A stretch of DNA of 64,000 nucleotides from Membranipora membranacea (Eukaryota; Bryozoa; Gymnolaemata; Cheilostomatida; Membraniporidae), in the NCBI GenBank assembly GCA_914767715.1, contig OU612067.1, positions 6,820,001 through 6,884,000 of the forward strand, in the 5' to 3' direction. The notes under the pieces were generated by a model. The model saw only the letters and a program-made list of their open reading frames with translations. It was not told the DNA's origin and searched no databases. Both the position numbers and the translations under genes were made by a program. Each line of letters starts with the position of its first letter. Within the stretch, counting starts at the first letter, position 1. This document shows, one piece after another, positions 1-51,791 of this stretch.

Positions 1-3000
1 TACTCATGCTGGGTTATGTCTACACACATGGCGAGCTTATGCTGTGAATACTATACTCCTCCGTGGTAAACACTGTTATAGATATGTGAATGGGAGCATT
101 CTCACTCTATGAGGGACCAAGAGTGACAGAGCAGCTCCAGAGTTATATGTGACTATGTGGCTATCGATTGCAAATTGGCTGTAAATCAACATATCACGAT
201 TATAAAGAACACTACCAGAGTAGCCAAAATCTAAGTGGTTTTATGTTGTAGATGCATACCGATTTCCAGACTTCGGTGCTGAGACAGTTTCTATTGATAT
301 GAGCTATGATGGGAACCGAACAGGCACAATCCAGAACCCTCTAATGAATCAAACGAATGATGGCGGTGAATCCTTTATAGCGTTCAGCAATCTTCCTTCA
401 GTGGTTTGGTTATCACTCCAATATACTTCTAATTCGTGTCAACCCCTACCATTCAAAGTACTAGCATCGCCAGACAAGAAAGTAACATTTAAAACTACTC
501 CATGTAACGCAACAAGTGAAGCAATCATAAATAGAGCCCACTATGAGGGCTTGTACTTCACTATGCAGAGAGCCTCACAAATCTATGAGTTTACGCTAAA
601 ATATCAGAGTGAGTGCATCAATCAAATCTTATCGTGCATGAGACCTCTAGCTTGCCGGACAGCATTTCTCTGTAATGTTGAAGGGCAATTTAGCGGTCAA
701 AGACAATTTTAGAGCTATGATTGCATTACATGCTGCTATTGTTGATAAGCTCCCAAGAACTCCCTTTTAAATTCCAACAATTCCTCAGCAGACATATATA
801 CTGTGAATTTCTTATAAAAATCAGAGAGAAGATCATGAAGATTCTAGCCGTCCACTGCCGGAAGTGTTACAACATGCATAATATGTAAAAATATGTGAAA
901 TGCGCTTTCATAATTGCTGTCATTACTTTGTTAGTGACATATGATTTATTTATTTATTTTATTTTCAGTCAAAGCTAGCGTATCCATCCTAAGAAGAGAA
1001 CCAAACACACCTCCAGTCGCTTTTTCAACACCATCAGGTTACATTATGAGCCATGAAAACTTCAATTTTGGTGTAGACATACCTGCTGCTTCCATATTCG
1101 ATCCCCCGAAGTCAGCGTCCTATCTGCGCTGGACCGACAGCTCTCTACTTCTCACACTCCCACCAGCTACCACTCATGTAAATCTCTACTTTATACGCTT
1201 TGATATTGGAAACAATAATGTCACAGTATGTGAGCAGAGCCAGACCAATGTCGATCAGTTTGCTGTTTACAATGGGGATACAACGCTCTACCAATGTTCT
1301 GGTGGAAATTCACCGCCACTCAATCAGACCTACAACATCACCACTGAGAACAGCAAACTCCGCTTCATGTTCAAAGCAAACAGCGTTGCCGTTGGAGCAA
1401 GAAATACAACAGGGTTCACAGGATTTCTGCTCCGTTATAACAGTTTGTACAATGTATCAGTGCTTTGTGTTTACATGTGGCACACAGGTACTCTGTGTGA
1501 AAAGCTTCGAATTGATATTCAACTGTCCTCAAACAGCATTCAAATTTCACAGTGTACCACAAGTTTAATGTGCTCTGTTTACTTTTAATGGATCTGTTTG
1601 TCAAGATTTTAATATTCAATTTCACTAATACCGCATCATACCTAGCCAATGTGATTTTATCACCCTACTGATCAGATTAAAACCCAAGAGAATTGACAAA
1701 TCACCTGAATTAGTAGAATTGATGTACCCTACTGACCTTAATATTTCACGGGCTCCTAATTCGCGGAGGGCACTACTCCACCCTTTTTCACTAGTCTTAA
1801 TTATTCACGGATCTCAGGCCCGCGAAAGTAGTAGTAGCAGTAGTATTCTATTTTAAAAAAACAGACCTCATTTGGATTTGAACCTGCAACAACCCAAGGC
1901 AGATGCTTTACACACTGAGCTATTCAGCCTCTTGACATATATACTGAGTATTTAGCTAGTTTTAATTATTCGAGGTTTCTGTCATCGCTAACCGCGAAAT
2001 ATTAAACCACTTGAAAACATAAGGTCAGTAGGGTATATAAAAAAATACATTACAATAAAATAATTCTCCCTACTCTAGTAACAGGCTGTGAAGTTGACTA
2101 TCCTCATGCTAGAATAAACCGTCAACGAAACTCTACATCAGAGTTTATCCTGAACTGCACTGACAATGTGACTGCTGCTGAAATCACTTGCAAGGATGGG
2201 AATTGGACAGGAGGTCTTCATCCATCACTCTGTCCAGTCCCCTCATCATCGATAGAATCCACAACGGTATCAGGTAAGGAGTTCTCTGTCTCCAAACGGA
2301 TTACACTTGTTGTAACTCATTTTTTCACCCTCAAATCAAAGAGTTTGAACCTCCCTGCTCATATGAAGGTCTATCTACAAAAAAGCCTTACAGTTTAACC
2401 TGTCTATACAGAGAAAGCACATGGTACATGATGCTGTCTAGTGATAGGACACAAGTATTCTACCTTACTTTTGAAGTTTGTATGTAAGATCGATAACACC
2501 AGGTCGGGCTGTAAAATAAATCACTGGCCTATTGGCTAAGATCAAAGTGTCATGGCTAATGGCTGATTAGTGCCTGTTTCAGTTTCTGGCAGCTTGCTGC
2601 ACACTCACGATTAGGAGGTCCACCATTGCCTCACCTCTAGGATGCATTCTAGGATGTATCACACTCTCAGTATGAGGACTCCGGGCAACTTGCGTCCTTC
2701 TGTAGGGGCAGCCCACCCTCTGTTTTATCATAAACAGGGGGGGACTGTTTGATTATTTTTGCTATATATTGTATTATATTATTTTCGTTGATTGCAGGAA
2801 CCACAACTAATGGCAGTACCGCCACCACCGTCACTACCGGCACTACTGGCACTACTGGCACTACTGGCACTACACAAGCTGGAGGTTCAAATAGCAATAA
2901 TAAAACTGTGTTCACTCCAGATTCCAAAGGTACTGGCCAGCCTTTCCAGTGGGAGATGATACACACAGTATCTGTGTCAGCTGGAGGAGGCTGTCTTGTT

Positions 3001-4220
3001 CTGATTATCATCATCGTGATCCTGGTGGTGGTCATCTGTAGGAATAAATCCCATAGCAGGTTAGTGACTAAATTCAGAGCAGATTTTTTCTAAATAATAT
3101 CCCCATGGTCATAAAATGTCCAGCATGTCCACTATGACCTCAGTTGTATCTGTTACAAGCGTAGATATTGATAGCTTCTCGTCAATTATGCTCTGCCTTA
3201 GAGAACTGAAATTTTTATCACCTGGTTTCAGAGAACAGACAAAATTTAAAGATGGAGAGGACGCGGATACATACGAGCCACCAGACAATGATTATCACTG
3301 CCTGGAGGAGAACACAAATGAGTGTAACGACACTCATGTACAACCTGGTATGTTGACCTGGTGTTTGTCCTGCTCCTGTCTTCTTTGCTACATTTTGGCT
3401 TGGAGTGGTGCTTCAAGAAATATCAAGTCTGAAATAATTTATTACCATCAACAACAGCTATCCAGATGATGTTACATTGTAATATGGCATCTATTTGGTC
3501 CTTTCACCGCTTGTTGGAACAGCAGTGATTAATTTTGTTGACATATTGAATTATTTTCACTAGATAATAACAGAGACAGTGACGGCGATGGTTATGCTAT
3601 GGTTGATATGTCTGAAAACAGGAGAGCCGCAGAAGCTGCAGGTTTTGAAGATAAGAAACCATCCTCAGAACTGATTGATCCAAGCGATGGAGGTCCATAT
3701 TCTACAGTGAACATCATATCTGATGAGTCAAACGCTCCACCTGAGGATGATACCCACAATGCATCTGAAAATAAGGATGCAGAGGTAGAGGAGAGCTCTA
3801 CAGCTCTCCCAGACTCTACAGATGCGGTGGAGGGAGAGCAAGACTGTGAGAGAGATGAGGATGATGTGGAAACTTACGCAAACCAGGCAACCATAAAGAG
3901 ACAGTAAGTTAGATTATCTTGTGACAGTACCGTTACTTACCAGTCAAAATAGGTCATATTGTAGGCGCTACAGTTCAACTTGAACTAGTATTCAATAGGT
4001 CATATTGTCAGTGTCAACTTGAACTAGTAGTCGATAAGTCATGATAGGTCATGACACTGACAATCTCTTCTCTTCTGACAGGAACACTGAAAAACAGAAA
4101 GGAACCACTGATTTGTATGGAAGCATATTAGCGGAAAATAAGAAGAAGCCAGCGTCAGATGAACAGCCAATGACATCTACAGATGAAGAGATGGTAGACA
4201 ATGACCTATACGGTACATAG
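1..4220 (+). CDS. Gene 1: type A CUB-CUB-sushi membrane receptor, 5' partial
   Basis: Coding exons that I place at 252-608, 969-1442, 2079-2273, 2798-3059, 3232-3347, 3564-3903 and 4082-4220 (TAG). The window opens inside intron 1; the signal-peptide exon lies upstream and is inferred from paralogs. Exon 252-608 encodes CUB-like domain 1 (a GTIQNP strand, closing FTLKYQ). Exon 969-1442 encodes CUB-like domain 2 (VDQFAVYNG matches the CUB Dx[LF]xVYDG strand; closing GFLLRY). Exon 2079-2273 is a sushi-like module with four Cys and a Trp before the last Cys. Exon 2798-3059 carries a Thr/Gly repeat stalk and a transmembrane helix starting GGGCLVLIIIIVIL. The tail has DGYAMVDM, PYSTVN, TYANQATI and DLYGSIL. 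All splice sites are GT..AG and phases match throughout. A MITE sits in the intron before the sushi exon. The family is not one I can name; receptor function is inferred from architecture. Confidence 0.85.
1727..2033. mobile_element. MITE with 14-bp terminal inverted repeats and TA target duplication
   Basis: The element starts CCCTACTGACCTTA and ends with its exact reverse complement. It is flanked by TA at 1725-1726 and 2034-2035. The same intron of gene 4 (around 23315) reads straight through as an uninterrupted GATGTATATAAA, which is the empty site. A TA duplication is the hallmark of Tc1/mariner-type mobilisation. There is no transposase, so the copy is non-autonomous. The core holds a decayed tRNA-like stretch on the minus strand (1862-1935). 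Confidence 0.9.
1862..1935 (-). repeat. tRNA-derived sequence inside the MITE
   Basis: On the minus strand there is an A-box-like TAGCTCAGTGTGTAAAGCA and a B-box GGTTCAAATCC at tRNA-like spacing. The acceptor ends do not pair, so this is not a functional tRNA. It is probably a SINE head or pseudo-tRNA captured in the MITE. Confidence 0.6.
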
Positions 4221-5043: not shown

Positions 5044-7928
5044 ATGAAGTCTCTAATGTTTCTGGTTATAATCATCATGCTAAGCTTCATATCTAGAGGT
5101 ATGACTATCTGATCGTTCTTCTAAGTTAGTAGTTGGTTTTCATTATCACTCTACTTCAAGAACGAGAATCATCCATTTTGTATCAGGGTGACTATGCTTG
5201 GTAGAACATCATGATTAGAAATAAGACTGGTTTTGAACACTCTCATCATTTTTGTTATGTAGAGGATTATGGATATCAGTTTCTGCTCACAAACACCACA
5301 ATAGATATTGCTGTGGCAAGTAATCGCCAAGGCAAAATCGTAAGTCCAAGCCATCCAAATGCTTACAATGTTGGAACAACGTTGTTCATCTATTTCATCA
5401 ATCTCCCTGAGTTATTCTGGTTAAGAATGGAGACAAAATATGTTGGCGTCGGTGGTCCATGTATGCCAGTGCCTGTCAAGGTCAACCTGTCACATCCTCC
5501 TGGGTCAGTCAGACTCACTCAAGGGGCGTGTAAGAGCGGAGTGATGGTATATGACTCTATGATCAGAAAGCAAGGATCAGCGCATCTGGAAATGAGCACA
5601 CCAGACCAAGTTTCAGAAGGTTCCTTACCAGCTTTTGAAATATATTATCGAAGTAAGGAGTTAGTAATGTGTATACACATTATATGATGTTTCAAAATGG
5701 TAATATTGTGATTGTGAGCAATCCAGAAGTACTCTCTACTTCTGAACTGCAGAAGATTACTTATTCTCTAGGACACCCTAGGATCATTCCCTCTGATTTT
5801 ACACAAAGATGCCTAAAGCTGCATTCAAGGACTTCTTTTTCTCTGGCTGTACAGGGCCGTAGTTTAGAAAAAATGGTAGGGGAGGCAAAAGTCTGAGGCA
5901 TCACCAGTAACCTCCTCCTTGTGAAATTCGAGGAGTATAATAAGCAAATGGAAGTCCCAGAGGGTCTGATTCTGACGTAGATTATTCAATTATAGTGTTT
6001 TAGGCCACTATATTTAGTTTTCTAGGGGAGGCAGTGCCTCTCTGCCTCCCCTAGAACTACGGCCCTGCTGTATGGCAAGTTTTCATTCCATACTTTGTAT
6101 TACCATGCTTTCTGAGACAAACAATAGCAAGTGCTTCATGCTTCCTTTATGATTTGCATTTCAGTAAAAGATGGGGTTAAAACCCTAACAGATTCTTCAA
6201 CAGGTCAGGATTCCGGCGATGCTGGGCTCATCATGAGTCACAGAGACTTCGACTTTGATCACTCAACTTATGCAAGAAATATAAATTACTTCCTTATTTT
6301 AAATCTACCAGTAGCTGCAAAAAGTATCCATATAGAATTTATCAAGTTCAATATTGGGTTGAGTAAGGAAATGTGTAAAGAAGCTGAAGCACTGGCGGAC
6401 CTGTTTATAATCTAGTATGTATCATAATAGAAACATCCAAAGATAATTTTTATGGCTGGCATTAATTCCATGACAATCAGCTATATATTTGATGAAAGAA
6501 TATATTGCTCACATCTGGAACTTATTTCCAACTATCAAAGTGTGCCCCTGCCTTTATGAGAAACACTGTTTTTCCTAAATATATCCTATTACACCATAGT
6601 TCCACCGGCCCACAGCACAGGCAAATGTTTAAATTATATAACTTAGCCAATTATTCTGTTGTTTTCAGCTTTGCAGCAGCATCTGACTATATCTGAGAAA
6701 CCAAAGGGTGAGCCTCTAAACAAGAGAGTAATCTCATTGCAATTCTTAAACAGCATTGCCCCTGCCATTAAGTTGATTGTAAACGCTTAGTTGTGCCTCA
6801 GTCCTCGTTTTTGTTGGGACGAATTTCATCTCCCTTCTTTTTAGATAATAGATTGACAGACAGTAAAAAAGCTTGCCATGTACTGAGGATGTAACTATTT
6901 TGAATAAGAAAACACAAGTCAATGAAGTCATCCAAAACAGTAGATATTATTATACATTAAAAGACACCTATTATCTATCGCGTTCGTAACAAGTCAATTT
7001 GATAGCTTTTTTTTTTCATTGTAGGTGATCAACCCATAGTTATGATAGGTTCGGTCCTCGGAGTTGTCTGCATACTTCTGGTTGCTGGTTTGATTCTGTT
7101 GGGGATCAGAAACAGAAACTTGAATACAGAAATTCAAAGGTATGTCGAGATAATTGCTGTTTGTCTTAATGAGCTAGGTCCCTGGTCTTGGTAATAATTG
7201 TTCCTTTCCATCTTTTTCTATCCTCATAGTTCAATGGTGATAATAAGCTAATCACCATTTCTATTTCAGATTGAATGCATCTGGGAGAACAACTCAACCT
7301 GTTATGGAGAGAAGCGCCATTGAAGGTATTAGTTTGGCAATGACTCAAACACATTATATACATAGTTAAACTTACTTACTATTAAGGATTTACTTTTGAG
7401 CCATGATATTGTTGTGAGTCCCTCAGATTCATGCAATGAATGATCCATTTCACATGTTCTTGCAACACAAAATTAACATGAGGGTAAAACATATTCCACA
7501 AAATCAAATCTGAACATAGTTTCAGCGAGAAAAAAGTTGATGGGAGTTGGATTTTTAATGTAGGCCTAGAATTATTTATGATAAGGATTTTTGTAAATTC
7601 ATGTCTTCATTTTCGAAGAAAAATTTATATTACACAAAAAATGGAGTATACAATTATAGTCTCAGCCACATAATTATTCCAATCACGCAGTGTTTCCCTA
7701 CTTTTCTTTAAAGCTGGATTGAGCGATCCTACCGAATATGAGACTGTGGGATTGGACCTCTCCCGAATAAATCCATCAATTGATTATGAGACCGTCATTC
7801 AAGGCACCGACAGTACTTATAAGAACACTGGTATGGCAGGAAATATTCAGTCGCAAAATCCAGAGTATGAGATGGTGAAGCAAGAAGGAGGAGTAGAAGA
7901 TCATGTTTATACATCTCTAAATAACTAG
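5044..7928 (+). CDS. Gene 2: chimeric receptor, type C ectodomain fused to type B transmembrane/tail
   Basis: Exons: 5044-5098 (signal peptide, MKSLMFLVIIIMLSFISRG), 5263-5652 (CUB-like 1, type C), 6165-about 6415 (5' part of type C CUB-like 2), 6669-6707 (13-codon stalk), 7025-7139 (transmembrane, GVVCILLVAGLILLG), 7270-7325 and 7714-7928 (tail, TAG). The type C CUB 2 exon matches gene 7 up to ADLF and then diverges into a stop at 6413-6415; its normal second half, the sushi exon and the type C transmembrane exon are absent. Skipping the truncated exon restores frame, because exon 5263-5652 and exon 6669-6707 are both phase 1, giving a one-CUB receptor. The tail has PTEYETV (ITSM-like), SIDYETV (ITIM-like), PEYEMV and a terminal VYTSLNN. 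Whether the chimera is expressed is unknown. Confidence 0.7.
5852..6067. mobile_element. hAT5-like MITE in gene 2 intron
   Basis: The 216-bp insertion starts CAGGGCCGTAGTT and ends with its reverse complement. It is flanked by 5-bp direct repeats CTGTA (5847-5851, 6068-6072). The paralogous intron near 36492 shows the empty site as GGCTATATGGC. CAGGG ends with a short 5-bp duplication fit the hAT5 subgroup by family knowledge. No transposase is present. Confidence 0.8.
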
Positions 7929-8885: not shown

Positions 8886-11800
8886 ATGATTGAGTTATAT
8901 AAATTCAGAATTGGATTGTTTGTCTACGTCTCTATTTCACAGATATCGTGTGGTGAGTTACCTGCTATTAATGGAGTTGAACTTGGGACCTGAGGATAAA
9001 ATATCTCTTCCTACACCATTTTTTGCATAAAAAGAAGGGTAATTCCTCTAAGGCTTTATCAACTAGACACACATATTTATATGAAATATTGGCAAAACAA
9101 AATAGTGTATCTGCAAAGTCAATAAACTTCAGCACCTCTGAAATAAATAGAACAGACTCGCCTGAAACCGATCACTTAGATCTAACTTCCTCATTGTGTT
9201 ATCTGTTACGGTAATACCTTTTGAGATGAATTTACAAGTTTCATCCACATCGTGTATCAGTTAGCTATCCTGATAGGAACACCTGTTAAACAGTATACAA
9301 CTTTGGTATAGGAAACTGAACCACGACTAAGGCTGTTGTTTGTGTAGTTGTTGTGGCTGTTGTTGTTGTTGGTTGTGGTGGCTGTTGTTTGAATATTGGA
9401 AATGCTTTTGTTTGAAGGTACATAGCATTTCGTTAGACTTCATTTTTGTTTGAAAAGATTTCGTGGAAGTTATTGCTTATGTCTTTAGACTCCTTGCATT
9501 GGGAGAAGGTCTCTCAGTACAAAATATATAGTCTCTACCATCTGGTTGCTACCGGGATGCTCTAGTTTTTTACTAAGCAATCATATTTCTCTAACAACCC
9601 CAAAGAAGTAAATATTAGTCAAAGTTTGGTGCTGACATAATGTCAGGTTGCATGAACTTTAGCTTGTGAAAATGAGAGTTGAAAGAAAGTTTGGTGAACG
9701 GTTGAGTGAAAGTTAGTTAGAACTAAATTTCACTATATCTTGCCTGTGAGAAATGGTGAGCTTATTATGCGAATACTTTACTCCTCAGTGGTATACCCTG
9801 TTATAGATATGTGAATGGGAGCATTCTCACCAAGAAGTCAATGCGACAGGACATCTCCAGAGTTATATATGACGGCTATCACTTGCAAATTGGCTGTAAA
9901 TTAATATATCACAATTATAAAGAACAATACCAGAGTAGCCAAATATAAGTGAATTTATGTTGCAGATGCATACAGATTTCCAGACTTTGGTGCTGAGCCA
10001 GTTTCTATTGATATGAGCTATGATGGAAACCGAGCCGGCACAATTCAGAACCCTCTTATGAATCAAACAAATGATGGCGGTGAATCCTATATAGCGTTCA
10101 GCAATCTTCCTTCAGTGGTTTGCTTATCACTTCAATATACTTCTAACTCATGTCAACCCCTACCATTCAAAATACTAGCATCGCCAGACAAGAAAGTAAC
10201 ATTTAAAACTACTCAATGCAATGCAACAAGTGAAGCAATCATAAATAGAGCCCACTATGAGGGCTTGTACTTTTCTATGCGGAGGGCATCACAAATCTAT
10301 GAGTTTACACTAAAATATCAGAGTAAGTGCATCAATCAAATCCAGTTGTGCATGAGACCTCTAGCTTGCCGGACAGCATTTCTCTGTAATGTTGAAGGGT
10401 AATTTAGCGGTAAAAGACAATTTTAGAGCTATGATTGCATAACATGCTGCTATTGTTTATAAGCTACCAACACCTCCCTTTTGAATTCAAACATTTCCCA
10501 TCAAACATATATGCTCTCCTGTGAATCTCTCATGAAAATCACAGGGAAGATTCTAGCCGTCCACTACCTGATGCGTTCCAATATACACATGTAACGATAT
10601 GGTAAATGTACTGTCATAATTGCTGTTATTACTTTCGCAGTGACATATGAGTTATCCACAAATGTTTTCTCACTTATTTTCTTCTCAGTCAAAGCCAGCG
10701 TCTCTATCCTAAGTAGGGAACCTAACACAGTTCCTGGCACTATTGCTACACCATCAGGTTACATTATGAGCCATGAAAACTTCAATTTTGGTGTAGACAT
10801 TCCTGCTGCATCATTGTTACAAGCTCCAAAGTCAGCGTCCTATCTGCGCTGGACCCACAGCTCTCTACTTCTCACACTTCCTCCAGCTACTACTCATGTA
10901 GATTTCTACTTTATACACTTTAATATCGGTAATAATAATGTCACGTTATGTGAGCAGGCACAGTCTGATAGCAGTGTAGATCAGTTTGCTGTTTACAATG
11001 GGGATACAGCGCTCTACAAATGCGCTGGTGGAAATTCACCACCATCCAATCAGACCCACGAAATCACCACTGACAACAGCACACTCCGCTTTACCTTCAA
11101 ATCAAACAGTGTTGGAGCAGGAGATACAACAGGGTTCACAGGAATTTTGTTCCGATATAAAGGTATGTACTATGTCCTTTGTCTGGTGCTCACTGTTCGT
11201 GGTTGGTAAAGAGCCCTGTGCTAACTGGCTTAAAACTTGAAATTGATAGGCCTCCTTATGAGCAGTCGACTGAAGCAAAAAAGACATTCAATTTTCACAG
11301 TATACAAGCATAGTCTGGAATTGCTCTGGAACCTGAATTGCATGATAGTTACTTCTGCAGAACCATACCCTTCAGGTTGAAATCATCTATAGAGGTGATT
11401 GATGCAAAGTGTCACAATGAGTATAGGGATATGTGAGAAGAAATCAATAAAATTGGTATATTGTAGATCATGTGACTTTCTACAGATTTATATTTCTCTA
11501 CTCTAGTGTCAGGTTGTAAGGTCGACTACCCTTATGCTAAAATAAAGCGTTTACAAGCGCCTGTATCAAGCTTCAACCTAATCTGTGCTGACAATGTGAC
11601 TGTCGCTGAAATCGTTTGCATCAGTGGGACCTGGTCTGGGAGCCTTCATCCATCACTATGTCCAGGTCCGCCATCACCGCAACATTCCACAGCAGAATCA
11701 GGTACGGAAACCTCTGTCTCCCAATGTATTGCTCTAGTTGTAACTCATTAAGGTAGAGACACGGTTGTCAATAGTCTTTCCAGGATAGCGTTCGTTTACG

Positions 11801-15147: not shown

Positions 15148-15309
15148 TAATGGTGGAACATAAGGGTTGTATTCAGAGGTACCCTCACTGCAAGCGAGTT
15201 GTTTCCTGTTGGTAGTTGTTCTTAGGCGCAGGGACGCGCCATTGTCGTTGTCAGCGAGGCTTAGAGTCTCTTATTTAAGTAGGGTATTTTGAAATTGGGC
15301 TAAAAAGCC

Positions 15310-38600: not shown

Positions 38601-39902
38601 TCAAAAGTAAGTTTATGAATTGTATGATTACTTCGTAATAAGATAAAACAATGTTTTTAAAGAAAGATTAACAGTTATTGCACTAATACGAGTGAGCATG
38701 AGGGGAGGGGACGTTGATAGCAAACCACCACAGCATGCTCATATACAAAAGGTCCGAGTAAACTACGGAATTTGTTGCAATGTAAGCAAAAAGTTTTTAA
38801 ATTTTCTTAACAGATCAAGAACCAGAGACAATAATAGTGTCAATGATCAGAGAGAGGGTCAAGAAAACCTATACCATACCTTGCAGGAAAACTCACAAGT
38901 CATCAATGATCATCAATCAAACACAAATATCGGTAAGCTACTATGTTGTATTCTTAGAAAGCCATAACTCCCTACCCCCCCCCCTCCCTACAGTCTGATT
39001 TCTGTTGTGGCATTCATCTCTGATCTCATGAAAATAAGCTGTGTGACATGAATTATACAACACTGGTGCGCGTATTATGTTGATTATCATTATTCTTCTG
39101 CCATAATATGTATAAATATCAACTATGGAGGGTGAGTCTGAAGGCAATATCTTAGCTTATAGATATGGCGTTTCCTCCCAGTAACAATAGGGTGTCAAAT
39201 TGATATTCATGGTTCAACTTTTTGCACTCTTAATTACAAAGTACAATTTGAAAAAGTACAATCACAGTCTGTAAAGTTGTTAAAATCAATGATGTGTTAC
39301 CAGAAATGCTTTTGCTCCAGAAATTCAGATATGCATTGATAATGAGTCGGATGGATATGCAATGGTTGACATGACCAAAGCACTGCCAGGGGCGGCTGCT
39401 GGCGAGGAAAATACAGAGACTACCAACGGCTCAACTGATCCATATGAAGTGGGACCATACTCGTCTGTGAATCTTATTCCGGGAAATTCAGAAACAGGGG
39501 CAGAGAGCAACACCTAGAATGCATCAGGCCAAAAGATAAACGGAGCTAGCGACCCGGCATATTGTATGAATGAAGATAACCATAATACAGAGGAAACCTA
39601 TGCAAACCAGGCTTCTATCAGAGAAGAGTGAGTCCAGTCTTATCAGTCGAGTGTACATCGCAATCAGCTGTCATGACCGGTTGATGAGGTAGATCTGATT
39701 TGATATCTTAGTCATTTTCCATGTAGTAGAATGAGATGATACAGTCTGGCGTTTTTATTACAGAGACACTAAAAGACAAAAAAATACAGGAGATATATAT
39801 GCCAGCATACTCGCTTCAACGAAGAAAGAGACCGCTCAGACTGAGCCATCTTTGGCCTCTGCAGCTGTAGTTGAGATGGTTGAAAATGATTTTTATAGCT
39901 AA
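35663..39902 (+). pseudogene. Gene 7: type C receptor with nonsense codon in the tail
   Basis: Exons 35663-35705 (short signal peptide), 35864-36253 (CUB-like 1, 130 codons), 36750-37151 (CUB-like 2; DLFKIYNGG), 37814-37990 (sushi-like, four Cys and a Trp), 38255-38606 (Ser/Thr/Gln stalk and transmembrane helix starting GGGGLVLLIIIIVLA), 38814-38932 (tail, LYHTL), 39321-39627 (YAMVDM, PYSSVN) and 39764-39902 (IYASILA, TAA). A TAG at 39515-39517 stands where gene 7' has CAG (51137-51139). The protein would keep ectodomain, membrane helix and the first three tyrosine motifs but lose YANQASI, IYASIL and FYS. It could act as a signalling-altered version or be an early pseudogene. Confidence 0.87.
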
Positions 39903-40228
39903 TAACTTATAAAAATTGCACAACCATGATAAACTCTGGTTGACTGCTGATGATGGACAGTTCAGAAAAACTGACATTCAAACATAGATTTTGGTGTTTT
40001 GTTAAGATAAAATTCTGACTGGCGCCAAGCTATACTGATATCAAAATGAAATTTTTTATAAAAAGATTCTCACAAGATGTTTAATTTTTATGTGTGAAGT
40101 TATCAAACCGTAGCCTTGTCACGCGGCCACTGGTTTCGGTTTTTTTGGTTTTTTGGGTGGCCTTGTATTTCTCGGTATAGTATCGGTAGTTGTCTTCTGC
40201 TGTTTTAGCTCTAATCTTCATGATCATG
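39903..40228. other. Tandem-duplication junction
   Basis: The gene 7 3' flank continues to 40110, matching 51791-51998. Then about 118 bp of unique sequence begins TAGCCTTGTCACGCG, like the left arm of the TAGCC micro-palindrome family, and ends where right-copy homology starts at about 40229. The breakpoint therefore abuts a palindromic element. Confidence 0.65.
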
Positions 40229-41275
40229 ATCATGTGCGAGCAAACCCAGTCTGATAATAGTTTAGATCACTTTGCTGTTTGCAATGAGGATATGGTGCCC
40301 TACCAATGTGCTGGTGGAAATTCCCCGCCACCCAATCATACATTCGACATCACTGCTAAGAACATCGTCCTCAGCTTTACATTCAAATCAAACAGTGTTG
40401 GACTAGAAGATACAACCGGGTTTTCAGGATATCTGCTCGAGTATGAAGGTTTGTATCATGTCATTTGTCTTGTGCTCTGTGTTCATGATTGGTAGGGATA
40501 CCCTGTGCTAAAAGGCTTATAATTAATAGGTCTTCTTATGAGTAGTGGACTGGAGCCACTAAGCCGTTCACATTTCACAGTATGCATAGTCTGCAATCTG
40601 CTCTGGAACCTTAATTGTATGATAGCATTATCTCTGCAACACCATACCCTTCAGGTTGAAATTATTCATAGAGATAATTGAAATGAAGTGTGACAAAAAG
40701 TGTAGGAATATTAGGGAAGAAATCAAAGTAATTGATACAATGTGGATGTGACTTTGTACAGATTTAATTTTCTCTACTCAACATGCTTTGAACTACTCAT
40801 TTCCACATGTTTGTGCGGCGCAAGTTTTGAACTATTGAAAAAAAATCAATCCTTGATAGGATTTTAGCAAGAAGAAGAAAAAGATTTTAAATATAATTTT
40901 TTTGAAGGCATTCTAATGTCTTCATGTTCTAAGAAAAAGTAAATACAAAATTAAAGTTACACAGTAAAATGGCGCATGATCTAAGTAATAATGATAACCT
41001 AGCCATATGATTTTCTCAATCACCCAGTGTTGTCTTTCTTTTTTTATAGCTGGATTGAACACTCCTACAAATTACAAGACAGTGGAATTGGAACTATCTC
41101 AAATTAATCCATCACTTGAATATGAAACTGTCAATCCGGCCGGAGCCAGTACTTATGAGAATGCTGGTGCTTGTATGGCAGGAACTATTCGGTCTCAAGG
41201 TGCAGAGAGGTGCATGAGATGGTGAAGCAAGAAGGAAGATTAGAAGATCATGTGTATACATCTCTAAATAACTAG
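40229..41275 (+). pseudogene. Gene 5': type B remnant
   Basis: Only the second half of CUB-like 2 (40229-40448) and the last tail exon (41050-41275) remain. The tail keeps PTNYKTV and SLEYETV plus TYENA, which gene 5 has lost. It shares the AGGTGC lesion that leads to TGA at 41223-41225. No promoter or signal exon belongs to it. Confidence 0.85.
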
Positions 41276-42151
41276 CAACAAATTCAGCTCATTTTGTTGA
41301 ATAGAGATATTGATGCTAGTCTGAGCCTCCCCCGGCTCTTGCCCCCCTCCCAATAGCCCCCAGGCCGGGGATGCCAGTTTTTGTTTCCCTGAATTATATT
41401 TTTTTCTCCATGATGTTTTATAAAGTTTTGTGTCACATACCACTGTTGCTGGGTCTGAATTTAGTATTTCTCTGAGCTTTGTGTCATTCTAGATACCATG
41501 AGAGGAGCACTGTTGAGCCATTGGTAGTTATGTCCTTACGACAAGAGAGGGGATAACCCCTGATCGCAGCGAGCATCTTGAAACCCAGGATATAATACCC
41601 CTATCAATATCTGATAATCCAGTCAATTGTATCAGGATTGGATAGATAAGCTGAAATTTAGACTGAACCAGATATCAATGACTACTAGTTGAAGATATAA
41701 GAGGAGAACAAATTCAGGCATACTACAATACCATTTTCGCAAGGAATTACAAACATTATTATAATTCAACCATTTACCTCAAATTTGTGGGTGACAATAA
41801 TATCATTCGTCTCCCAATATATGTCATCTTATAATCCTTGTGACATCCCGATGACCCGATGTTGCACTCTTTATGATAGCATATATCGGTATGTCCTGCC
41901 TAATTAAGAGTAGTACTTGTGTACAGTCTTGTCATGTTTGACCTTAAACAGGTGTTTTGTAGAAATTGACGCGAAGCATAATGGTATCTTTTCACTGAAT
42001 GACCCAAAATGAATGGTTAATAATTTGCATAAAAAAACAGCGAACAATGAGCCCATTCAGATGGTTAGTATTAATGATTGTGGACTTCCTCTTTCCTGTG
42101 ACTTACTTTAAAAAAAAGCAACACTAGAGATCAAAGGTTTGTTACACGAGG
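41276..42151. other. Intergenic before gene 6'
   Basis: A copy of 28629-29490, with the type A promoter region at its right end. No gene is seen. Confidence 0.6.
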
Positions 42152-45100
42152 ATGTTGTGGTTATCCAAATTCATAATTGGATTGTTTCTCTACGTCTCAA
42201 TTTCACAGTTATCGTGTGGTGAGTTACCTGCTATTAATGGACTTGGACTTGGGACCTAAGGATAAATTATCACTTCCTACAACATTCCTTGCATAAAAAG
42301 AACAGTAAACTCTCTAAGGCTTTATCAACTAGACCTGCTCCGTATCAATTTCTTACTCATGCTGGGTTATGTCTACACATGGCGAGCTTTGCTGTGAATA
42401 CTTCACTCCTCCGTGGTAAACACTGTTAAAGATATGTGAATGGGAGCATTCTCACTTTATGGGTCACCAAGAAGTCAATGTGACAGAGCAGCTCCAGAGT
42501 TATGTGACGGCTATCGATTGTAAATTGGCTGTAAATCAACATATCACGATTATAAAGAACACTACCAGAGTAGCCAAAATCTAAGTGAATTTATGTTGTA
42601 GATGCATACAGATTTCCAGACTTCGGTGCTGAGACAGTTTCTATTGATATGAGCTATGATGGGAACCGAGCCGGCACAATCCAGAACCCTCTAATGAATC
42701 AAACGAATGATAGCGCTGAATCCTATATAGTGTTCAGCAATCTTCCTTCAGTGGTTTGGTTATCACTTCAATATACTTCTAACTCGTGTCAACCCCTACC
42801 ATTCAAAGTACTAGCATCGTCAGACAAGAAAGTAACATTTAAAACTACTCAATGCAATGCAACAAGTGAAGCAATGATAAATAGAGCCCACTATGAGGGC
42901 TTGTACTTCACTATGCAGAGAGCATCACAAATCTATGAGTTTACGCTAAAATATCAGAGTGAGTGCATCAATCCTAGTATTTAGTCTATTGTTTATTATT
43001 TTAATTATAACAGATAGAGTTTGTCTGAAGGGTTTCTTGTGAAGCCTGAAGTCAGTTTTAATAAATATTACCTCACTCCAATGAATTAATGTTGCATGAG
43101 AACTCTAGCTTGCCGTACAGCATTTCTCTCTAGTGTTCAAGTGTTATTTGAACGGTCAAAGAAAATTTTATAGATTTTATTACATTAATGCGCTTTTACG
43201 ATAGCATACTACTATGGTTGATATGCTACCGACACCTCCGTTTTGAATTCAAACAATTCCTCAGCCAACATAACATGCTTTCCTGTGAATTTCTCAAGAA
43301 AATCATTGGGAAGATCATGAAGATTCTAGCCGTCCACTGCCTGACGCCTGCCAATACATGTATGCACATGTAACGATACGGTAAATGTGCTGTCATCATT
43401 GCTGCCATTACTTTGGCTGTGACATATGAATAATTATCCACAAATGTTTCTTCACCTATTTTCTTTTCAGTCAAAGCCAGCGTCTCCATCCTAAGTAAGG
43501 AACCAAACACAGTCCCTGTCACTATTGCTACACCATCAGGTTACATTATGAGCCATAAAAACTTCAATTTCGGTGTAGACATTCCTGTTGCATCATTATT
43601 ACAAGCTCCAAAGTCAGCGTCCTATCTGCGCCGGACCAACAGCTCTCTACTTCTCACACTTCCTCCAGCTACTACTCATGTACATCTCTACTTTGTACAC
43701 TTTAATATCGGTAATAATAATGTCACGTTATGTGAGCAGGCACAGTCTGATAGCAGTGTAGATCAGTTTGCTGTTTACAATGGGGATACAGCGCTCTACA
43801 AATGCGCTGGTGGAAATTCACCACCATCCAATCAGACCCACGAAATAACCACTGACAACAGCACACTCCGCTTTACGTTCAAATCAAACAGTGTTGGAGC
43901 AGGAAATACAACAGGGTTCACAGGATTTTTGGTCCGATATAAAGGTTAGTACTGGTCCAGTGTTAGTTCTTGGTGTTTTTTTGTTTTTTTTGTTTTTTTT
44001 AATACTTCATTACCATTTGGTACATTAACACACGTTACCATTTGGTACTAAGGATACTCTGTGTGAAGAGCTTTGATATTTGATGTTCAACTTCAAAGAG
44101 AAAATTTACTGATTCAAAGCTGATTTGAGCAACAAAAGTGTTGATACTTCACAGTATATGTATACAGTATAGGTTTTCAATGTGCTCTCTTAATCAATCA
44201 TATGTCAACTGGATTGCATGACAATAACATCTACTGAGTGTAATTCCCTGCAGGCAGAAAAAAATTCATAAAAGCTAAATAACTAACATGACACAAAACA
44301 AATATAGGAATTGGAGGAATTTTTGAGAAGAAAGCAACAAAAATAGTCCAAATAATATAATTGAACAGATTACAGTAGCCTATGTCATTTTCCTTGTTCT
44401 AGTGACAGGTTGTGAAGTTGACTATCCTCATGCTACAATAGAGCATAGCATACAACAAGCATCACAGTTTACCCTCACCTGTGCTGACAATGCAACTAAA
44501 CATGAAGTTTTTTGCGTTGATGGGAACTGGTCGGAGAGTTTTCATCCATCAGACTGTCCAGGCCCCCCATCACCGGTACATTCTACAACGGTATCAGGTA
44601 AGGATTCCTCAGTCTTTCGTTGTATTGCAATTTTTTTATTTATTTTTTGCTCGTGATTTTGAAATACACTTCCTTAAATAGCTTCTAGCTTACCACAACT
44701 GATAGTGCCAGTACAGAGTGCCTAGTTCTGTCAAACGGACACCGCAACTCTATATATCACCATGATTTGAAGAACTATACAAAGAGCTTCATGAATGAAG
44801 CCCAACAATTTTGCCTATCTATCAAAAATACCAGACACGTAAATGTTATAACTTAACTTTTTGTTACTCGCAGATGGCACTGCTGGCACTAATGGCAGTA
44901 CTGGCACTACTGACTCTACTGGCACTAATGGCACTGCGGGCACTAATGGCACTACTGGCATTACACAAGCTGCAAGTACAAATAACAATAATATAGATGT
45001 GATCACCCAAGATTCTAGAGGTACTGGGACGATAATTCAGGTAGATTCTGGCCAGCCCTTCCAGTGGGAGATGATACACACAGTATCTGTAGCAGCTGGT

Positions 45101-46350
45101 GGAGGTGGTCTCATACTGTTTATCATCATTGTGATCCTGGGAGTAGTCATCTGTAGGAATAAATCACATTCCAGGTTTGTGACTAGCCTGCCTTAACAAG
45201 CTTGTCAAGACAGGCTAGTTTGTGAGCAAATATTGAGCAGATTTCATCTAAACAATATCACCATGGTCATAAAATGTCCAGCACAACCACTGTTACCTTT
45301 GTTGAATAATGATTGATAGTTTCTTGTCAATTATGCCATTATTTTGTGAACTGAAATATTTTATCACCTGTTTCCAGACAACAGATAAAACTTGAAGATG
45401 GGGAGGATATGGATACAACCCAGTGCCCTGACAATGATTATCACTGCCTGGAGGAGAACACAGATGAGTGTAACGAGACTCACATAGAACCTGGTATGCT
45501 GACTTGCTGATACTAAGTCTTGTCTAGCTCCTGTCTTCCGTGCAAAAAAAAATCTAAGATATGAAATCAGCAACACGGCTATCCAGATAAAAGTAATGAA
45601 TTTATGTGGTCAATTCTTATTCTTAATTGATCTGTAGCGTTTAAAGTCATAAATGTTGTAAACATATTCTCAGCTTCATATAGAGAATTACTTTCTCCAG
45701 GTAATAACAGAGACAGTGACGGTGATGGCTATGCTATGGTGGACATAGCTGAAAACAGGAGAGCCGCAGAAGCTGCAGGGAACGGAGATCAGAAACCATC
45801 TCCCGAACTGATTGATCCAAGCGATGGAGGCCCTTATTCTACTGTAAATATAATATCTGATGAGTCTAACCCTCCACCTGAGGATGTGACCCACAATGCA
45901 GCTGAAGATAAGGATACACAGGTAGATGAGAGCTCTACAGCTCTCCCAGACTCTAGTGACAAGTCAGAGGGAGAGCAAGACTGTGAGAGAGATGAGGACG
46001 ATGTGGATACTTACGCAAACCAGGCTACCATAAAGAGACAGTAAGTCCGATTGTCTTGTGGTACTACTGTTACCTACAAGTGACTTGATTAGCAAATAAA
46101 ATTGATATATTGTTAGAAATAATTCATACTCCCGGCACTGCAATTCAACTTGAGCTAACGGGTTATTGGTCATATATTTAATCTCACTATCATATGGTTT
46201 TATCCTTACAGGAAAACAGAAAAGCAGAAAGGCACCGCAGATTTGTATGGAAGCATATTAGCCGAAAATAAGAAGAAGCTAGCGTCAGATGAACAGACAA
46301 AAGCAACTACAGATGCAGATATGGTAGACAATGACCTCTATGGTACATAG
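42152..46350 (+). CDS. Gene 6': complete type A receptor, 662 aa
   Basis: Exons 42152-42218 (signal, MLWLSKFIIGLFLYVSISQ), 42602-42958 (CUB-like 1), 43471-43944 (CUB-like 2), 44403-44597 (sushi-like), 44874-45174 (Thr/Gly/Asn stalk and transmembrane), 45378-45493 (juxtamembrane, two Cys), 45701-46040 (YAMVDI, YSTVN, YANQATI) and 46212-46350 (LYGSILA, DNDLYGT, TAG). The total is 1989 nt, open throughout, with consistent phases. The stalk is eight codons longer than in gene 6 through extra repeats of the ACT/AAT-GGC type. Tyrosine motifs include YxxV/I sites (possible SH2-phosphatase or endocytic sites) and YAN, a YxN site typical for Grb2-family SH2 domains. This is the cleanest type A reference in the window. 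Cell-surface recognition is inferred. Confidence 0.9.
45184..45217. repeat. Micro-palindrome, TAGCC..GGCTA family
   Basis: The same insertion as 33172-33205, inherited through the duplication. The flanking copies are GTTTGTGAC and GTTTGTGAG. Confidence 0.85.
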
Positions 46351-47310
46351 ACTCGCAAAGTTGTTGGGAACGTTGACCAAACAAAATCATCTCAACTGCC
46401 GATATGTGTTTATTATTTAATCTCGGGGAGTCTGACTTTACATTTGATAGGTGCACAAAAGAAAGATGACCTTCTCATCTGGGTTTCAGTTGCAGAATCA
46501 TAGGAAAAAGAGGCATGTTTGTGTTTCTCTACAATTTACCGATGTATATTCATATATCAACCATCAAAGTTATGAATTCATCAAACTATATCCCTAAAGA
46601 AACTCCATCTACTATTAACTTATTTAATTTTGTGAGACGAATTGATGTAATCCCAATTTTTTCTGACGACAATGATTTCAGTTTAGATCAATTATATTAA
46701 CTCTCCAAGATTTAGTGATTATGCTATTATGGTTATTTACAAAATGATTGCACTAAAGCTTAATGCAATGTCATTTTTTTTCGTTGTCATTATAACATGC
46801 GTAGATTAACTATTTGTTTGATCATACATATACTAGTATAATTCTACATGCTGCATACAATTCTGCAAACAACTTAACAAGCATGATATGCTCCTTTTGT
46901 GACATATAAAAAAATACAAAAACTAAATACAAAACGGCACATGCATGCATCTGTTAATCGCAGCCTGTAATTAGGGATAGCTTCTGAGATAACCCATTAT
47001 ATCGCTGGTAATGACGACTCAAATAATCGCTCTTTCTATTAGGGTATTTTTCAGGTCATGCATCTCTACCTAGGCTAGATATAGCAATATTACGACTAGT
47101 TTTTTAATATTTTTGTACAATGGTTAATATCCCTAAGTCTTTTTGTAGCCTTTGTCTGGTTGAAACAATAGTTTTCTTAGAAATGAAAAGTATGAATGCG
47201 ACCAAATTTTTTTATAGCATTTTCAGTGTAGCTTTAAAGAAGGACGTACTACTACTTGGGTGTTATGCTGCTAATCATTCATCTCAAGTAAGGAGTGTAT
47301 CAAGTAAAAC
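46351..47310. other. Intergenic between gene 6' and gene 7'
   Basis: Gene 6' 3' UTR and type C promoter region, without the 364-bp insertion of the left copy. No gene is seen. Confidence 0.6.
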
Positions 47311-50300
47311 ATGAAGTCTCTAATGTTTCTGGCAATAATCATCATATCTAGAGGTATGATTATCTGATAGTTCTTCTTAGTTAGTTCATTTCTTCTCTAC
47401 CTCGAGAACTATAATCATCCATGGGTATTAGATTGACAATGATTGGTAGAACATCATGATTGGAAGCAAGACTGGTTTTAAAGTTAAACACCCTCATCTT
47501 TTTTGTTATGTAGAGGTTTGTGGATATCAGTTTCTGCTCACAAACACCACGATAGATATTGCACTAGGCAATAATCGCCAAGGCAAAATCGTAAGTCCCA
47601 GCTATCCAAGCGTTGACAATGGTGGAACAACGTTGTTCATCACTTTCATCAATCTCCCTGACATATTCTGGTTAAGAATGGAAGTAAAATTTGTCGATCT
47701 TGGCAGTTCATGTATGACGTTACCAGCCAAAGTCGGCCTGTCACATCCTTCTGGACCAGTCAAACTCTCTCAAGGCAACTGTAACAGCGGAGTGATGGTA
47801 TATGATAGTATGGTCAGAAAGGGAGGATCAGCGCATCTGGAAATGAGCACACCAGACCCACTCTCAGAAGTTCCAATCCCAGCTTTTGAAATATATTATC
47901 GAAGTAAGTCAATGTTGTATCACACATGATGAAAGGTTTATGAATGAATCCGTCTTAGCAAGGAGAAAGTGATAGTAGTCAGCAGCTAAGCAGTACACTC
48001 TAGTTCTGTTCCTTCATAAGTATTTCCTGACAGTTGTTTACCTATTCCCTCTGGTTTTACACAAAGATGCCTAAAGCTAAATTCTAGGACTTGGCCTCGT
48101 CAGCAGCAGCTGCTAAATTTTACTGTGGCTTTATGGCAAGATTATATATCCTTGGTCCTCTGAATTACCACGCTCTCTGAAAAAAATCAACAATAGCAAG
48201 CCTTCTTATGTCTGTGAAGGGGCACACTGACGTTTGTGTGGCTACCAAATTCTTTTTGGTTGTATTGTATCCTATCATATATAGTTTTCATTTTGCTCTG
48301 AAATACCTGAGAAAATAGTGCAATTTGTATTTATTTGAATGCTGCCTATATTTATGATTTTTGTTTCAGTACAAGATGGGGTTAAAGCCCTGACCAATTC
48401 TTCAACAGGTCAGGATTCAGGTGATGCTGGGCTTATCATCAGTCACAGAGACTTCGACTTTGGCCCTTCAACCTATGCAAGAGATACACATGACTTCCTT
48501 ATCTTAAACCTACCTGTAGCTTCAACAAGTATTCATATGGAATTCATCAAATTCAATATTGGGTTGAGTAAGGAAATGTGTAAAGAAGCTGAAGCACTGG
48601 CGGACCTGTTTAAAATCTACAGTGGAGGCGGTTCTCTTTATGAGTGTAGAGGAAGAGCAGATCCTCCGAGTAACAAGACATTCAGTATTGAACATACAAA
48701 CCTGATAATTCAGCTTACAGCTGCGAAGCACTCCTCCTTCAATGGATTTCTGATCTATTATAAAAGTAAGCACTCCGGTACATCACTCCGGTACATCGCA
48801 CTGTTGATTTTAGGAGGAACAAAAATACAAAAATACGCATCGCAGTGAGTTGAAATAGTAGTTGTGGATGCTGAAAACAGGTTATTGCTGCTCAATTCAG
48901 CTAACATAGTTGCATGGTGGTTGTTGGTGTATACAAAATGATTTCTGATCCTGGCTCATGAGCTAAAAATTCGTTCTTCTATTGGAAGCAAGATGGCCAA
49001 AATATGAGAGTTGCAATTTGCTTGCCAGTCATCGAAAGAGCAATATCAAACAAAATATTTTGGTTGAGCGTATACGGTATGAATTTCTAGATAATTGACA
49101 ATATTGTCTCGCAAAAGAACATAATGAACGCAACTTGCCCAGCAAACCGACACTATGGATCAAATTTAGAAGCACATACATTTACTGTTTAAAACTAGGC
49201 TCCTTGCTGAAAATATCATCACTCGTTTCACAAACCGATCAGAACATTAAATATAAAAAGTAAATGCGAGTTGATACTTTGTACTGGGCAACCAACCCAA
49301 ACTTGTGGCTATCAGGATCTCATTCTATTGAATTACATCGCCATTTAGGTCACTGACACATCCATTTTAATAAAAAAAAAATTCTCAACAACTCATTGAA
49401 CATTGACCTGATACTGTTTTTAATTTTTAGTTGAGAGCTGTAACAGTGCATTGCCGCAGGTAACAGACATAACACGTCATCATGGATCAAGCTCAATGTT
49501 CAAAATCACCTGTATGAATGACAGCAACTTTGTCCTCAGATGTGAAAACGGTATTTGGGCAGGCCATGGAGAAACCACATGCTCACAATCTCCAACTACC
49601 TCTACAGGTAATAGCCATTTTTAAAGTGGCTTATCACACCTACAGTACAGGCCTAAAAATAATTCATTTGTTTCAGTTAGGGTGTCCAGTCAAAAAAGAC
49701 TTTATTGGCCTACCTATCATGGTTCAAATCTACAATCAATGTTCTTGGTATCAATTTTCTGTGAGAATTATTTGCGAAAATAAAACAACATCTGACATTT
49801 CCATGATGAAATTACAATACTGACATATACACTGTTATATATATTTTAATAATCACTTATTATTACCACAGATATTTCTTATTATTTCTTAGCAATACCA
49901 ACAATAAGAATCGGGACAAGTAAGACTACTGCTAGGAATAATGCTGGTATTACAGCACACTCAACAAGATCCACGTCCCTGTCGATCACTCATAGCTCAA
50001 TTACTACAACCAGAGACATACAACAGCAATCAAGTCAACCAAGTTTTACAAAGAGACAGGATGATTCTGAAATCCCAGACGCCAAGTCCTCCACAGGACA
50101 GTCCAGGTTATTCCAGTGGAGGTCTATATACACAATAGCTGTTGGAGCTGGAGGTGGCGGGCTAGTTCTGCTAATTATCATCATAGTACTTGCAACAATC
50201 ACATGTCGTAGTCACCCTCAAAAGTAAGTTTATGAATTGTATGATTACTTCGTAATAAGATAAAACAATTTTTTTAAAGAAAGATTAACAGTTATTGCAC

Positions 50301-51791
50301 TAATACGAGTGAGCATGAGGGGAGGGGACGTTGATAGCAAACCACCACAGCATGCTCATATACAAAAGGTCCGAGTAAACTACGGAATTTGTTGCAATGT
50401 AAGCAAAAAGTTTTTAAATTTTCTTAACAGATCAAGAACCAGAGACAATAATAGTGTCAATGATCAGAGAGAGGGTCAAGAAAACCTATACCATACCTTG
50501 CAGGAAAACTCACAAGTCATCAATGATCATCAATCAAACACAAATATCGGTAAGCTACTATGTTGTATTCTTAGAAAGCCATAACTCCCTACCCCCCCCC
50601 CCCTCCCTACAGTCTGATTTCTGTTGTGGCATTCATCTCTGATCTCATGAAAATAAGCTGTGTGACATGAATTATACAACACTGGTGCGCGTATTATGTT
50701 GATTATCATTATTCTTCTGCCATAATATGTATAAATATCAACTATGGAGGGTGAGTCTGAAGGCAATATCTTAGCTTATAGATATGGCGTTTCCTCCCAG
50801 TAACAATAGGGTGTCAAATTGATATTCATGGTTCAACTTTTTGCACTCTTAATTACAAAGTACAATTTGAAAAAGTACAATCACAGTCTGTAAAGTTGTT
50901 AAAATCAATGATGTGTTACCAGAAATGCTTTTGCTCCAGAAATTCAGATACGCATGGATAATGAGTCGGATGGATATGCTATGGTTGATATGACAAGACA
51001 AACAATGCCAGGGGCAACTACTGACGAGGAAAATACAGAGACTACCAACGGCTCAACTGATCCATATGAAGTGGGACCATACTCGTCTGTGAATCTTATT
51101 CCGGGAAATTCAGAAACAGGGGCAGAGAGCAACACCCAGAATGCATCAGGCCAAAAGATAAACGGAGCTAGCGACCCGGCATATTGTATGAATGAAAATA
51201 ACCATAATACAGAGGAAACCTATGCAAACCAGGCTTCTATTAGAGAAGAGTGAGTCCAGTCTTATCAGTCGAGTGTACATGGCAATCAGCTGTCATGACT
51301 AGCTCAGATGTACACATTAGCCAGTCTTGAAAAGCTTCGTTCGTTCGGTGAACAAAGCTTGTCAAGACATGCTAATGTACACAGTGCAGTTCACTTAATT
51401 CAAACCTCTGTGGACCACAAATATTTGTCCTAATTAAGCAGAGTCTGGAATAAGTGCAAAAAAAAATGTATTTAGGTCTGGCTGAAGGGACTTATTTTCC
51501 TTGTCCGAATTAACAGGAGTCTGAATTTACCAGCTTACACTGTAGTTATCGTTCAAGCTAAGCAGCGTTGATGAAGTAGATCTTAATTGATATTTCAATC
51601 ACGTCCCCTGATGTCAATTATGAGGTGACACTATCTGGCATTTCTGTTACAGAGCCACTGAGAGACAAAGAAATACAGGAGATATATATGCCAGCATACT
51701 CGCTGCAACGAAGAAAAAGACATCACAGACTGAGCCATCTTCAGCCTCTGCAGCTGTAGTTGAGATGGTCGAAAATAATTTTTATAGCTAA
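47311..51791 (+). CDS. Gene 7': complete type C receptor, 641 aa
   Basis: Exons 47311-47353 (signal, MKSLMFLAIIIISRG), 47514-47903 (CUB-like 1), 48370-48765 (CUB-like 2), 49431-49607 (sushi-like), 49872-50223 (stalk and transmembrane), 50431-50549 (LYHTL), 50940-51249 (YAMVDM, PYSSVN, TYANQASI) and 51653-51791 (DIYASILA, ending NNFYS, TAA). The total is 1926 nt, open, with consistent phases. The ectodomain is distant from types A/B, but the tail has the same motif order as type A (DGYAMVDM, PYS[TS]VN, YANQA[TS]I, [LI]Y[GA]SILA), so A and C tails share ancestry. The signal peptide is short; a longer start was looked for and not found. The last intron carries a nested insertion (51309-51383 within about 51300-51570). 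Confidence 0.88.
51309..51383. repeat. Micro-palindrome, TAGCC family, in gene 7' last intron
   Basis: The fold-back TTAGCCAGTCTTG..CAAGACATGCTA has flanking direct repeats ATGTACACA (51308-51316 and about 51375-51383). It is absent from gene 7. It sits at the left end of a larger right-copy-specific insertion reaching about 51570. Confidence 0.75.

Follow-up and report, generated by a model that had tools for sequence, protein, structure and literature searches.

A 64,000-nucleotide stretch of the bryozoan Membranipora membranacea (contig OU612067.1; below, "the window") holds ten tandem gene copies, all on the + strand between positions 252 and 51791, that read as type I membrane-protein genes with a shared plan: CUB-like module 1, CUB-like module 2, sushi module, Gly/Thr/Ser-rich stalk, transmembrane (TM) segment and tyrosine-rich tail. 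On the evidence of sequence we propose, with moderate confidence, that this array is a recognition locus of paired-receptor-like type whose copies have diversified by exchanging segments. More tentatively, it may represent a previously undescribed animal paired-receptor family with two CUB-like modules and a sushi module, in which copies with an inhibitory-like tail (type B) would stand beside copies with adaptor-type tails (types A and C) and conversion would act at the level of exons. The copies were located by exon-by-exon tblastn and spliced models, and self-BLASTN gave repeated blocks across 1-52 kb of the window, so that the two methods agree on the repeated units claimed for 1-51791 in an earlier, sequence-only reading of this DNA. 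Their order (A1, C1B, AB, A3, B4, A4, C4, B5, A5, C5) is readable as a repeated A-C-B trio, an arrangement that would need whole-gene losses and one deletion fusing C1 to the following B.

Segment relationships among the copies

The relationship between copies AB and A5 changes sharply along the gene. Their DNA is 94.7% identical in CUB1 and 96.0% in CUB2, 57.7% in intron 2 and 70.6% over the sushi exon plus 33 bp (56% identity for the sushi protein sequence), and B tails and A/C tail exons gave no tblastn match to each other in either direction at E 1e-3. Because identity falls past CUB2 and the tails are unrelated, homogenisation appears to stop after CUB2. The sequence-only reading had described near-identical A and B ectodomains on unrelated tails; this pattern, a feature of paired receptors, was found for the CUB1-CUB2 part and does not extend to the sushi module. 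The swap demonstrated by these comparisons is that of an A-type CUB1-CUB2 carried on an A tail in one case and on a B tail in the other, together with the damaged fusion C1B (C ectodomain, B tail).

Types A and C had been thought to have unrelated ectodomains on homologous tails. The homology of the tails was borne out by tblastn and alignment, but the ectodomains are also related, with 37-39% identity in CUB2 and 26-30% in CUB1 and within-window tblastn E values down to 6e-23 (CUB2) and 2e-9 (CUB1). On these alignments A and C represent a single gene type, as paralogues that have diverged over their whole length. The combinatorial pattern is therefore narrower than first described: segment exchange, chimeras and decay hold, and the B tail alone is unrelated to the rest.

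A change of closest relative was also seen in A1. At positions that distinguish A3 from A5, A1 agreed with A5 over A3 by 106:6 in CUB1, 135:27 in intron 1 and 44:29 in CUB2, whereas the ratio turned to 17:111 in intron 2 and 9:36 in the sushi exon; the shift in affinity between CUB1 and sushi gave p 7.5e-21 in a Fisher test, which like the other such tests on A1 counts linked sites as independent. By this measure A1 is mosaic, part of it A5-like and part A3-like, and the comparisons above showed AB, too, as a mosaic of differently related segments, the claim depending in each case on the change of closest relative along the gene with linked sites taken as independent.

The exon plan is CUB1, CUB2, sushi, stalk/TM and then two or three tail exons, with the stalk a separate exon in AB. 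In the spliced models of A1, AB, A5 and C5 every intron is GT-AG, the ectodomain introns are in phase 1 (giving 1-1 exons) and phase 2 is found at the end of the TM exon, confirming the modular ectodomain that had been proposed. Fixed exon lengths were found within a type: CUB1 is 357 and CUB2 474 nucleotides in each of A1, AB and A5, and the sushi exon 189 nucleotides in A1, AB, A3 and A5. They do not hold throughout, as A3 has a CUB1 of 375 and a CUB2 of 480 nucleotides and C5 has 390 (CUB1), 396 (CUB2) and 177 (sushi). The frame is uninterrupted from CUB1 to stop in 4/10 copies (A1, AB, A5 and C5) and the other six are damaged, so the previous count of seven or more genes as complete or almost complete was too high.

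Cytoplasmic tails

The tails were scanned for the immunoreceptor tyrosine-based inhibitory, switch and activation motifs (ITIM, ITSM and ITAM) in their customary definitions. The AB tail carries an ITSM-type TNYDTV and an ITIM-type LEYETV, and the pair TxYxxV plus [LI]xYxxV was present in all four B tails (AB, C1B, B5 and B4); when the AB tail was shuffled 20,000 times, both motifs occurred in 261 cases. The tails of A1, A5 and C5 each have four YxxI/L/V motifs and one YxN, four or more YxxI/L/V being reached in 146 of 20,000 shuffles. Neither ITIM nor ITSM was found in the A/C tails scanned (A1, A5, C5, the A4 and C4 tail exons and A3 exon 2). A classical ITAM was considered and rejected, as it was absent from all six tails scanned for it, A1, A5 and C5 among them.

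Each of the six tyrosines in the A5 tail has an aligned counterpart among the eight of C5, and the flanks of these residues (-2 to +3) are identical at 19/28 positions compared with 36/149 elsewhere (p 2.3e-5). These contexts are conserved even though A-C synonymous sites in the compared exons are saturated or nearly so. Inspection by eye of the TM segments of A1, A5, C5, AB and C1B revealed no charged residue inside, and therefore no adaptor-pairing residue.

The ratio of nonsynonymous to synonymous substitution rates (dN/dS) was calculated pairwise, exon by exon, with no significance test on any value, and A-C pairs were left out of the ranges because dS was infinite or above 2. For tail exon 2 of the A copies dN/dS was 0.21-0.38, and it is on this basis that the tails appear constrained. 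CUB1 of C1 against C4/C5 gave 0.53-0.54, that of C4 against C5 gave 2.96 (from 11 changes), and the A4-A5 stalk/TM comparison gave 1.11 (from 13 changes). The values point to tails under constraint and a sushi module that changes faster; we make no claim of positive selection.

Identity of the ectodomain modules

Pfam gave no named domain in any A, B or C ectodomain module scanned, so a search with the CUB (PF00431) and sushi (PF00084) models, which had been suggested as a check, found nothing in these genes, whereas profile comparison recovered CUB for module 2 and sushi for module 3. For module 2 the Pfam CUB model was absent in 7/7 members at E up to 10, but hhalign against a nine-sequence CUB profile returned a probability of 88.6% and a score of 39.8 over 87 columns, compared with a maximum of 18.0 in 60 column-shuffles and 16.0 on reversal. 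No CUB appeared, up to E 10, when PDB sequences were searched with a profile of the module 2 alignment, and the structure model was weak (predicted local distance difference test score 59.9), with TNF-like folds tying with CUBs.

The case for module 1 is slighter. Pfam CUB was again absent in 7/7 members, the hhalign probability was 4% (score 19.6 over 19 columns, against a shuffle maximum of 18.0), and no CUB came up among PDB sequences to E 10 in the profile search. The best Foldseek row for its structure model was MASP-1 CUB2 (E 2.7e-3), but a second look ranked collagen-binding folds higher, and the fold lists for modules 1 and 2 include TNF-like, collagen-binding and enterotoxin-domain sandwiches.

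Module 3 has four cysteines and a tryptophan between Cys3 and Cys4 in 5/5 copies examined by eye (A1, AB, A3, A5 and C5), the fourth cysteine of C5 sitting in an adjacent alignment column. Pfam sushi was absent in these 5/5 copies, while all 16 matches of the module 3 profile to PDB up to E 10 were sushi proteins (factor H and relatives, factor XIII B); the best value, 6.5e-5, is a sum of three weak stretches, and with 0.053 for the second, one match lies below 0.05. Taken together, the profile comparison supports an order of CUB-like, CUB and sushi, with module 2 supported and module 1 marginal. Pfam gave no Ig match in any array exon to which it was applied.

Protein searches with A5, the A5 CUB2 exon and C5 yielded no relative, two of them having scored just the 7991 and 7995 candidates with the most words in common; the lone A5 match (P0001, E 0.16) was by eye a Gly/Thr-rich low-complexity stretch. 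A pattern scan of genome contigs gave 286 matches, none a relative. The collections searched are mainly prokaryotic and metagenomic, so these negatives tell little about animals.

Gene models, inserts and neighbouring genes

Three of the intact models have six introns each, all GT-AG, and no internal stop. Gene A1 (type A, 252-4220, 624 residues) consists of CUB1 252-608, CUB2 969-1442, sushi 2085-2273, stalk plus TM 2798-3059 and tail exons 3232-3347, 3564-3903 and 4082-4220 (to the stop); its 5' end probably lies beyond the window edge. Gene AB (type B, 9966-14470, 500 residues) has an A-like CUB1 at 9966-10322, CUB2 at 10689-11162, sushi at 11513-11701, stalk at 12224-12313, TM at 13024-13138 and tail exons at 13269-13324 and 14247-14470. 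Gene A5 (type A, 42602-46350, 637 residues) has CUB1 42602-42958, CUB2 43471-43944, sushi 44409-44597, stalk plus TM 44874-45174 and tail exons 45378-45493, 45701-46040 and 46212-46350 (to the stop). The model of gene C5 (type C, 47311-51791) is complete, with 641 residues from the start and no internal stop, and comprises a start exon at 47311-47353, CUB1 47514-47903, CUB2 48370-48765, sushi 49431-49607, stalk plus TM 49872-50223 and tail exons 50431-50549, 50940-51249 and 51653-51791 (to the stop).

The damage to the other copies takes several forms. C1B (5044-7928; exon tblastn and spliced model) joins a C-type start exon (5044-5098), CUB1 (5263-5652) and the half module CUB2 (from 6167, with a stop after 82 residues) to a B-type TM exon (7025-7139) and tail (7270-7325 and 7714-7928). 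No sushi match was found in it by tblastn, and a hypothetical exon skip joining start, CUB1, TM and B tail would keep the frame and give 276 residues. Gene A3 (type A, 21624-24942; spliced model and tblastn) has a divergent CUB1 (21624-21998), CUB2 (22534-23013), sushi (23371-23559) and an open tail exon 2 (24601-24936), with no tblastn match for tail exons 1 and 3. Its stalk/TM exon is frameshifted, with stops in the spliced frame past the stalk acceptor; the idea that A3 is an intact variant was rejected, as its spliced frame breaks in the stalk. Gene A4 (type A, 29941-34333) carries an insertion of about 686 bp that splits CUB1; the remaining exons, from CUB2 and sushi through TM to the three of the tail, are present downstream, and those checked (CUB2, TM and tail) have no stop. 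Gene C4 (35663-39902) has start exon, CUB1, CUB2, sushi, TM and tail, with an in-frame stop in tail exon 2. B4 (25083-28628) is a remnant with a candidate signal open reading frame (ORF) from 25083, a CUB1 end at about 26940-26987 (by eye), a frameshifted CUB2 (27342-27811) and a B tail in pieces (28409-28628). The B5 remnant (40232-41275) retains the second half of CUB2 (72 residues) and a B tail in two pieces of 53 and 20 residues in different frames. Neither B4 nor B5 gave a sushi or TM match by tblastn.

The signal exon that had been assigned to the common plan was seen, by eye, as a hydrophobic start exon in C1, C4 and C5, and is a candidate in the A/B genes. There, a conserved 5' block (41975-42334 upstream of A5, + strand) contains the candidate signal ORF MSPFRWLV.MIVDFLFPVT, which is open to the presumed donor in 2/5 copies inspected (29385 and 25083). 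The ATG at 42380 was rejected as the A signal exon, as by eye its frame is lost in A1, the 41975-42334 block being the better candidate. The type A stalk is coded by a 9-bp tandem repeat (Gly-Thr-Thr type) at 2806-2873, 23859-23970, 32894-32952 and 44874-44964; the repeat tract is longer in some copies than in others, so that the stalk can readily change in length.

Inserts of two kinds were recognised in the array. The one in A4 CUB1 (30121-30807, + strand) begins and ends with inverted repeats of about 24 bp and contains a MADF-like ORF (E 0.0022; 18.8 bits, below the Pfam cut-off of 22), which suggests by inference a PIF/Harbinger-like element; A5 does not have it. The other is a long terminal repeat (LTR)-type element at 14508-19982, beginning 38 bp past the AB stop codon, with two 640-bp direct repeats 99.7% identical by self-BLASTN. 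Its interior has one long ORF (15304-16368, no Pfam match), and because the remaining stop-to-stop frames are 81 residues or shorter it is probably non-autonomous.

Beyond the array, an ordinary-looking multi-sushi membrane protein gene occupies 53546-58048 on the + strand (limits by eye), with a signal-like start, several sushi exons, of which three exceed the Pfam cut-off, and a TM-like segment. On the minus strand, 60294-60656 is an exon of N-terminal Xaa-Pro-Lys N-methyltransferase 1 (PF05891, E 2.2e-29, with PDB relatives). At the window end, 63676-63999 is an exon matching kinesin-associated protein (KAP, PF05804, E 4.9e-18). The gene content by itself would mark the window as intron-rich, animal-type DNA; its GC content is 35-42% per 2-kb block, ARAGORN found no tRNA in it, and Rfam gave no match at gathering score.

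Discussion

The arrangement we propose is one in which a shared recognition head is mounted on tails of two sorts, inhibitory-like in B and adaptor-type in A/C. The ectodomains would bind a common surface ligand and the tails would send different phosphotyrosine signals, the B tail through a TxYxxV and [LI]xYxxV pair as in SHP-recruiting receptors, and the A/C tails through the four YxxI/L/V and one YxN of each intact tail. Exchange or gene conversion between copies would keep the heads matched across tails and at the same time yield new combinations. The whole would operate in the manner of vertebrate paired receptors such as KIR, Siglec-11/16 and CEACAM, or of Botryllus FcoR. It is reasonable to suppose that the array serves recognition, the likely targets being self or microbes. 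The recognition locus of the sequence-only reading thus keeps its phase-1 modules, exchanged segments, chimeras and decay, with combinatorics narrower than stated.

Several observations weigh against this proposal. Just 4/10 copies look intact, and the candidate signal ORF of A5 (42047) is frameshifted before the presumed donor. Among A/AB copies dN/dS is 0.12-0.36 for CUB1 and 0.31-0.55 for CUB2, and for the sushi exon 0.57-1.27, with 3/6 pairs at 0.89-1.27 on about 43 synonymous sites. ITIM and ITSM motifs span only a few residues, and since the four B copies share ancestry their agreement does not amount to four independent events; the damaged copy A3 lacks one tail tyrosine. In addition, a stricter, informative-site test on four copies revealed no conflict of topology between exons, 2029 of 10,000 permutations reaching the observed value with 54 sites.

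Self-BLASTN defines two units of about 12 kb (27591-40110 and 40227-51999, + strand), whose long blocks are 95.5-97.6% identical, the last block 89% and the individual features 91-100%. They may be a tandem duplication or unmerged haplotypes, and in the latter case copy number may be inflated. That the assembly has placed two haplotypes in tandem, so that the copy number is partly an artefact, seems to us possible although not the favoured view: the units are adjacent and highly alike, the second begins inside the CUB2 exon of a B remnant, and the A4 insert is present in one unit only. However, real unequal crossing-over leaves the same junction, and A1, C1B, AB and A3 are more divergent from the units in most segments, even if A1 and AB are nonetheless 95-96% identical to A5 in CUB1 or CUB2.

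A somewhat less probable explanation is that these are adhesion or endocytic receptors, CUB/sushi proteins comparable to Neto/SEZ6, in a cluster shaped by ordinary birth and death and playing no part in recognition; their tails would be sorting or adaptor sites, and gene conversion would be a by-product of the tandem arrangement. The dN/dS values below 1 in A/AB CUB1 and CUB2 and the damage to six copies would fit it, and YxxI/L/V can also serve as an endocytic YxxPhi signal. It accounts poorly for unrelated tails on nearly the same CUB1-CUB2, for an ITSM and ITIM kept in 4/4 B tails, and for the strong A5-C5 conservation around six tyrosines. That the array is a graveyard with no functional copy, its intact frames being young duplicates of a functional cluster elsewhere, is improbable: the 6/10 damaged copies, the frameshifted A5 candidate signal and the LTR and inverted-repeat inserts inside the array speak for it, but C5 is complete with a start exon, A1 (624 residues) and AB (500) are open across six GT-AG introns each, and tail exon 2 has dN/dS of 0.21-0.38.

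The paired-receptor-like reading invites comparison with known systems. Vertebrate paired receptors, such as KIR/LILR, Siglec-11/16 and CEACAM, are Ig-type, and likewise combine near-identical ectodomains with differing tails; unlike them, the array uses CUB-like and sushi modules, and both partners bear tyrosines of their own. CUB pairs, or CUB plus sushi, on a single-pass receptor are known from Neto1/2 and SEZ6, which differ in having LDLa or many alternating CUB/sushi modules and in being single conserved genes, not arrays. MASP, C1r and C1s also have two CUBs followed by sushi, and our CUB-like models resemble MASP-1 and C1r CUB2, but these proteins have EGF between the CUBs and a serine protease end, whereas A1, AB, A5 and C5 end in TM and tyrosine tail. 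MASP is described as having two CUB, sushi repeats and serine protease (PMC8260672). Paired receptors are defined in PMC3533184, and Siglec-11/16 ectodomains are reported to be homogenised by gene conversion (PMC5701461).

Botryllus FcoR is described as a type I TM protein of 520-610 residues with sushi and a long tail bearing ITIM, hemITAM or core YxxI/L/V, with gene content that varies between haplotypes (PMC12065747). The sushi module on a type I TM protein and the ITIM or core-tyrosine tail are shared with the array, but the FcoR ectodomain is IgV-sushi-IgC2-IgC2 and the array has CUB-like modules with no Ig match in its Pfam-scanned exons, so that its products would fall outside FcoR. Ciona vCRL1, which resembles complement receptors, is polymorphic and has CCP (sushi) domains, has been put forward as a marker of individuality; the text on it names CCP domains and makes no mention of CUB (PMC5465252). 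No described CUB-CUB-sushi paired receptor was found among the matches listed from the open-licence literature.

The array offers concrete gene models, tails and breakpoints for testing in the source animal. If the more tentative reading as a new family is correct, immune recognition or allorecognition would be served here by a locus that uses no Ig, LRR or lectin domains. If the paired-receptor-like proposal holds, the paired-receptor strategy of one recognition head on different tails would have arisen with CUB/sushi modules as well as with Ig modules.

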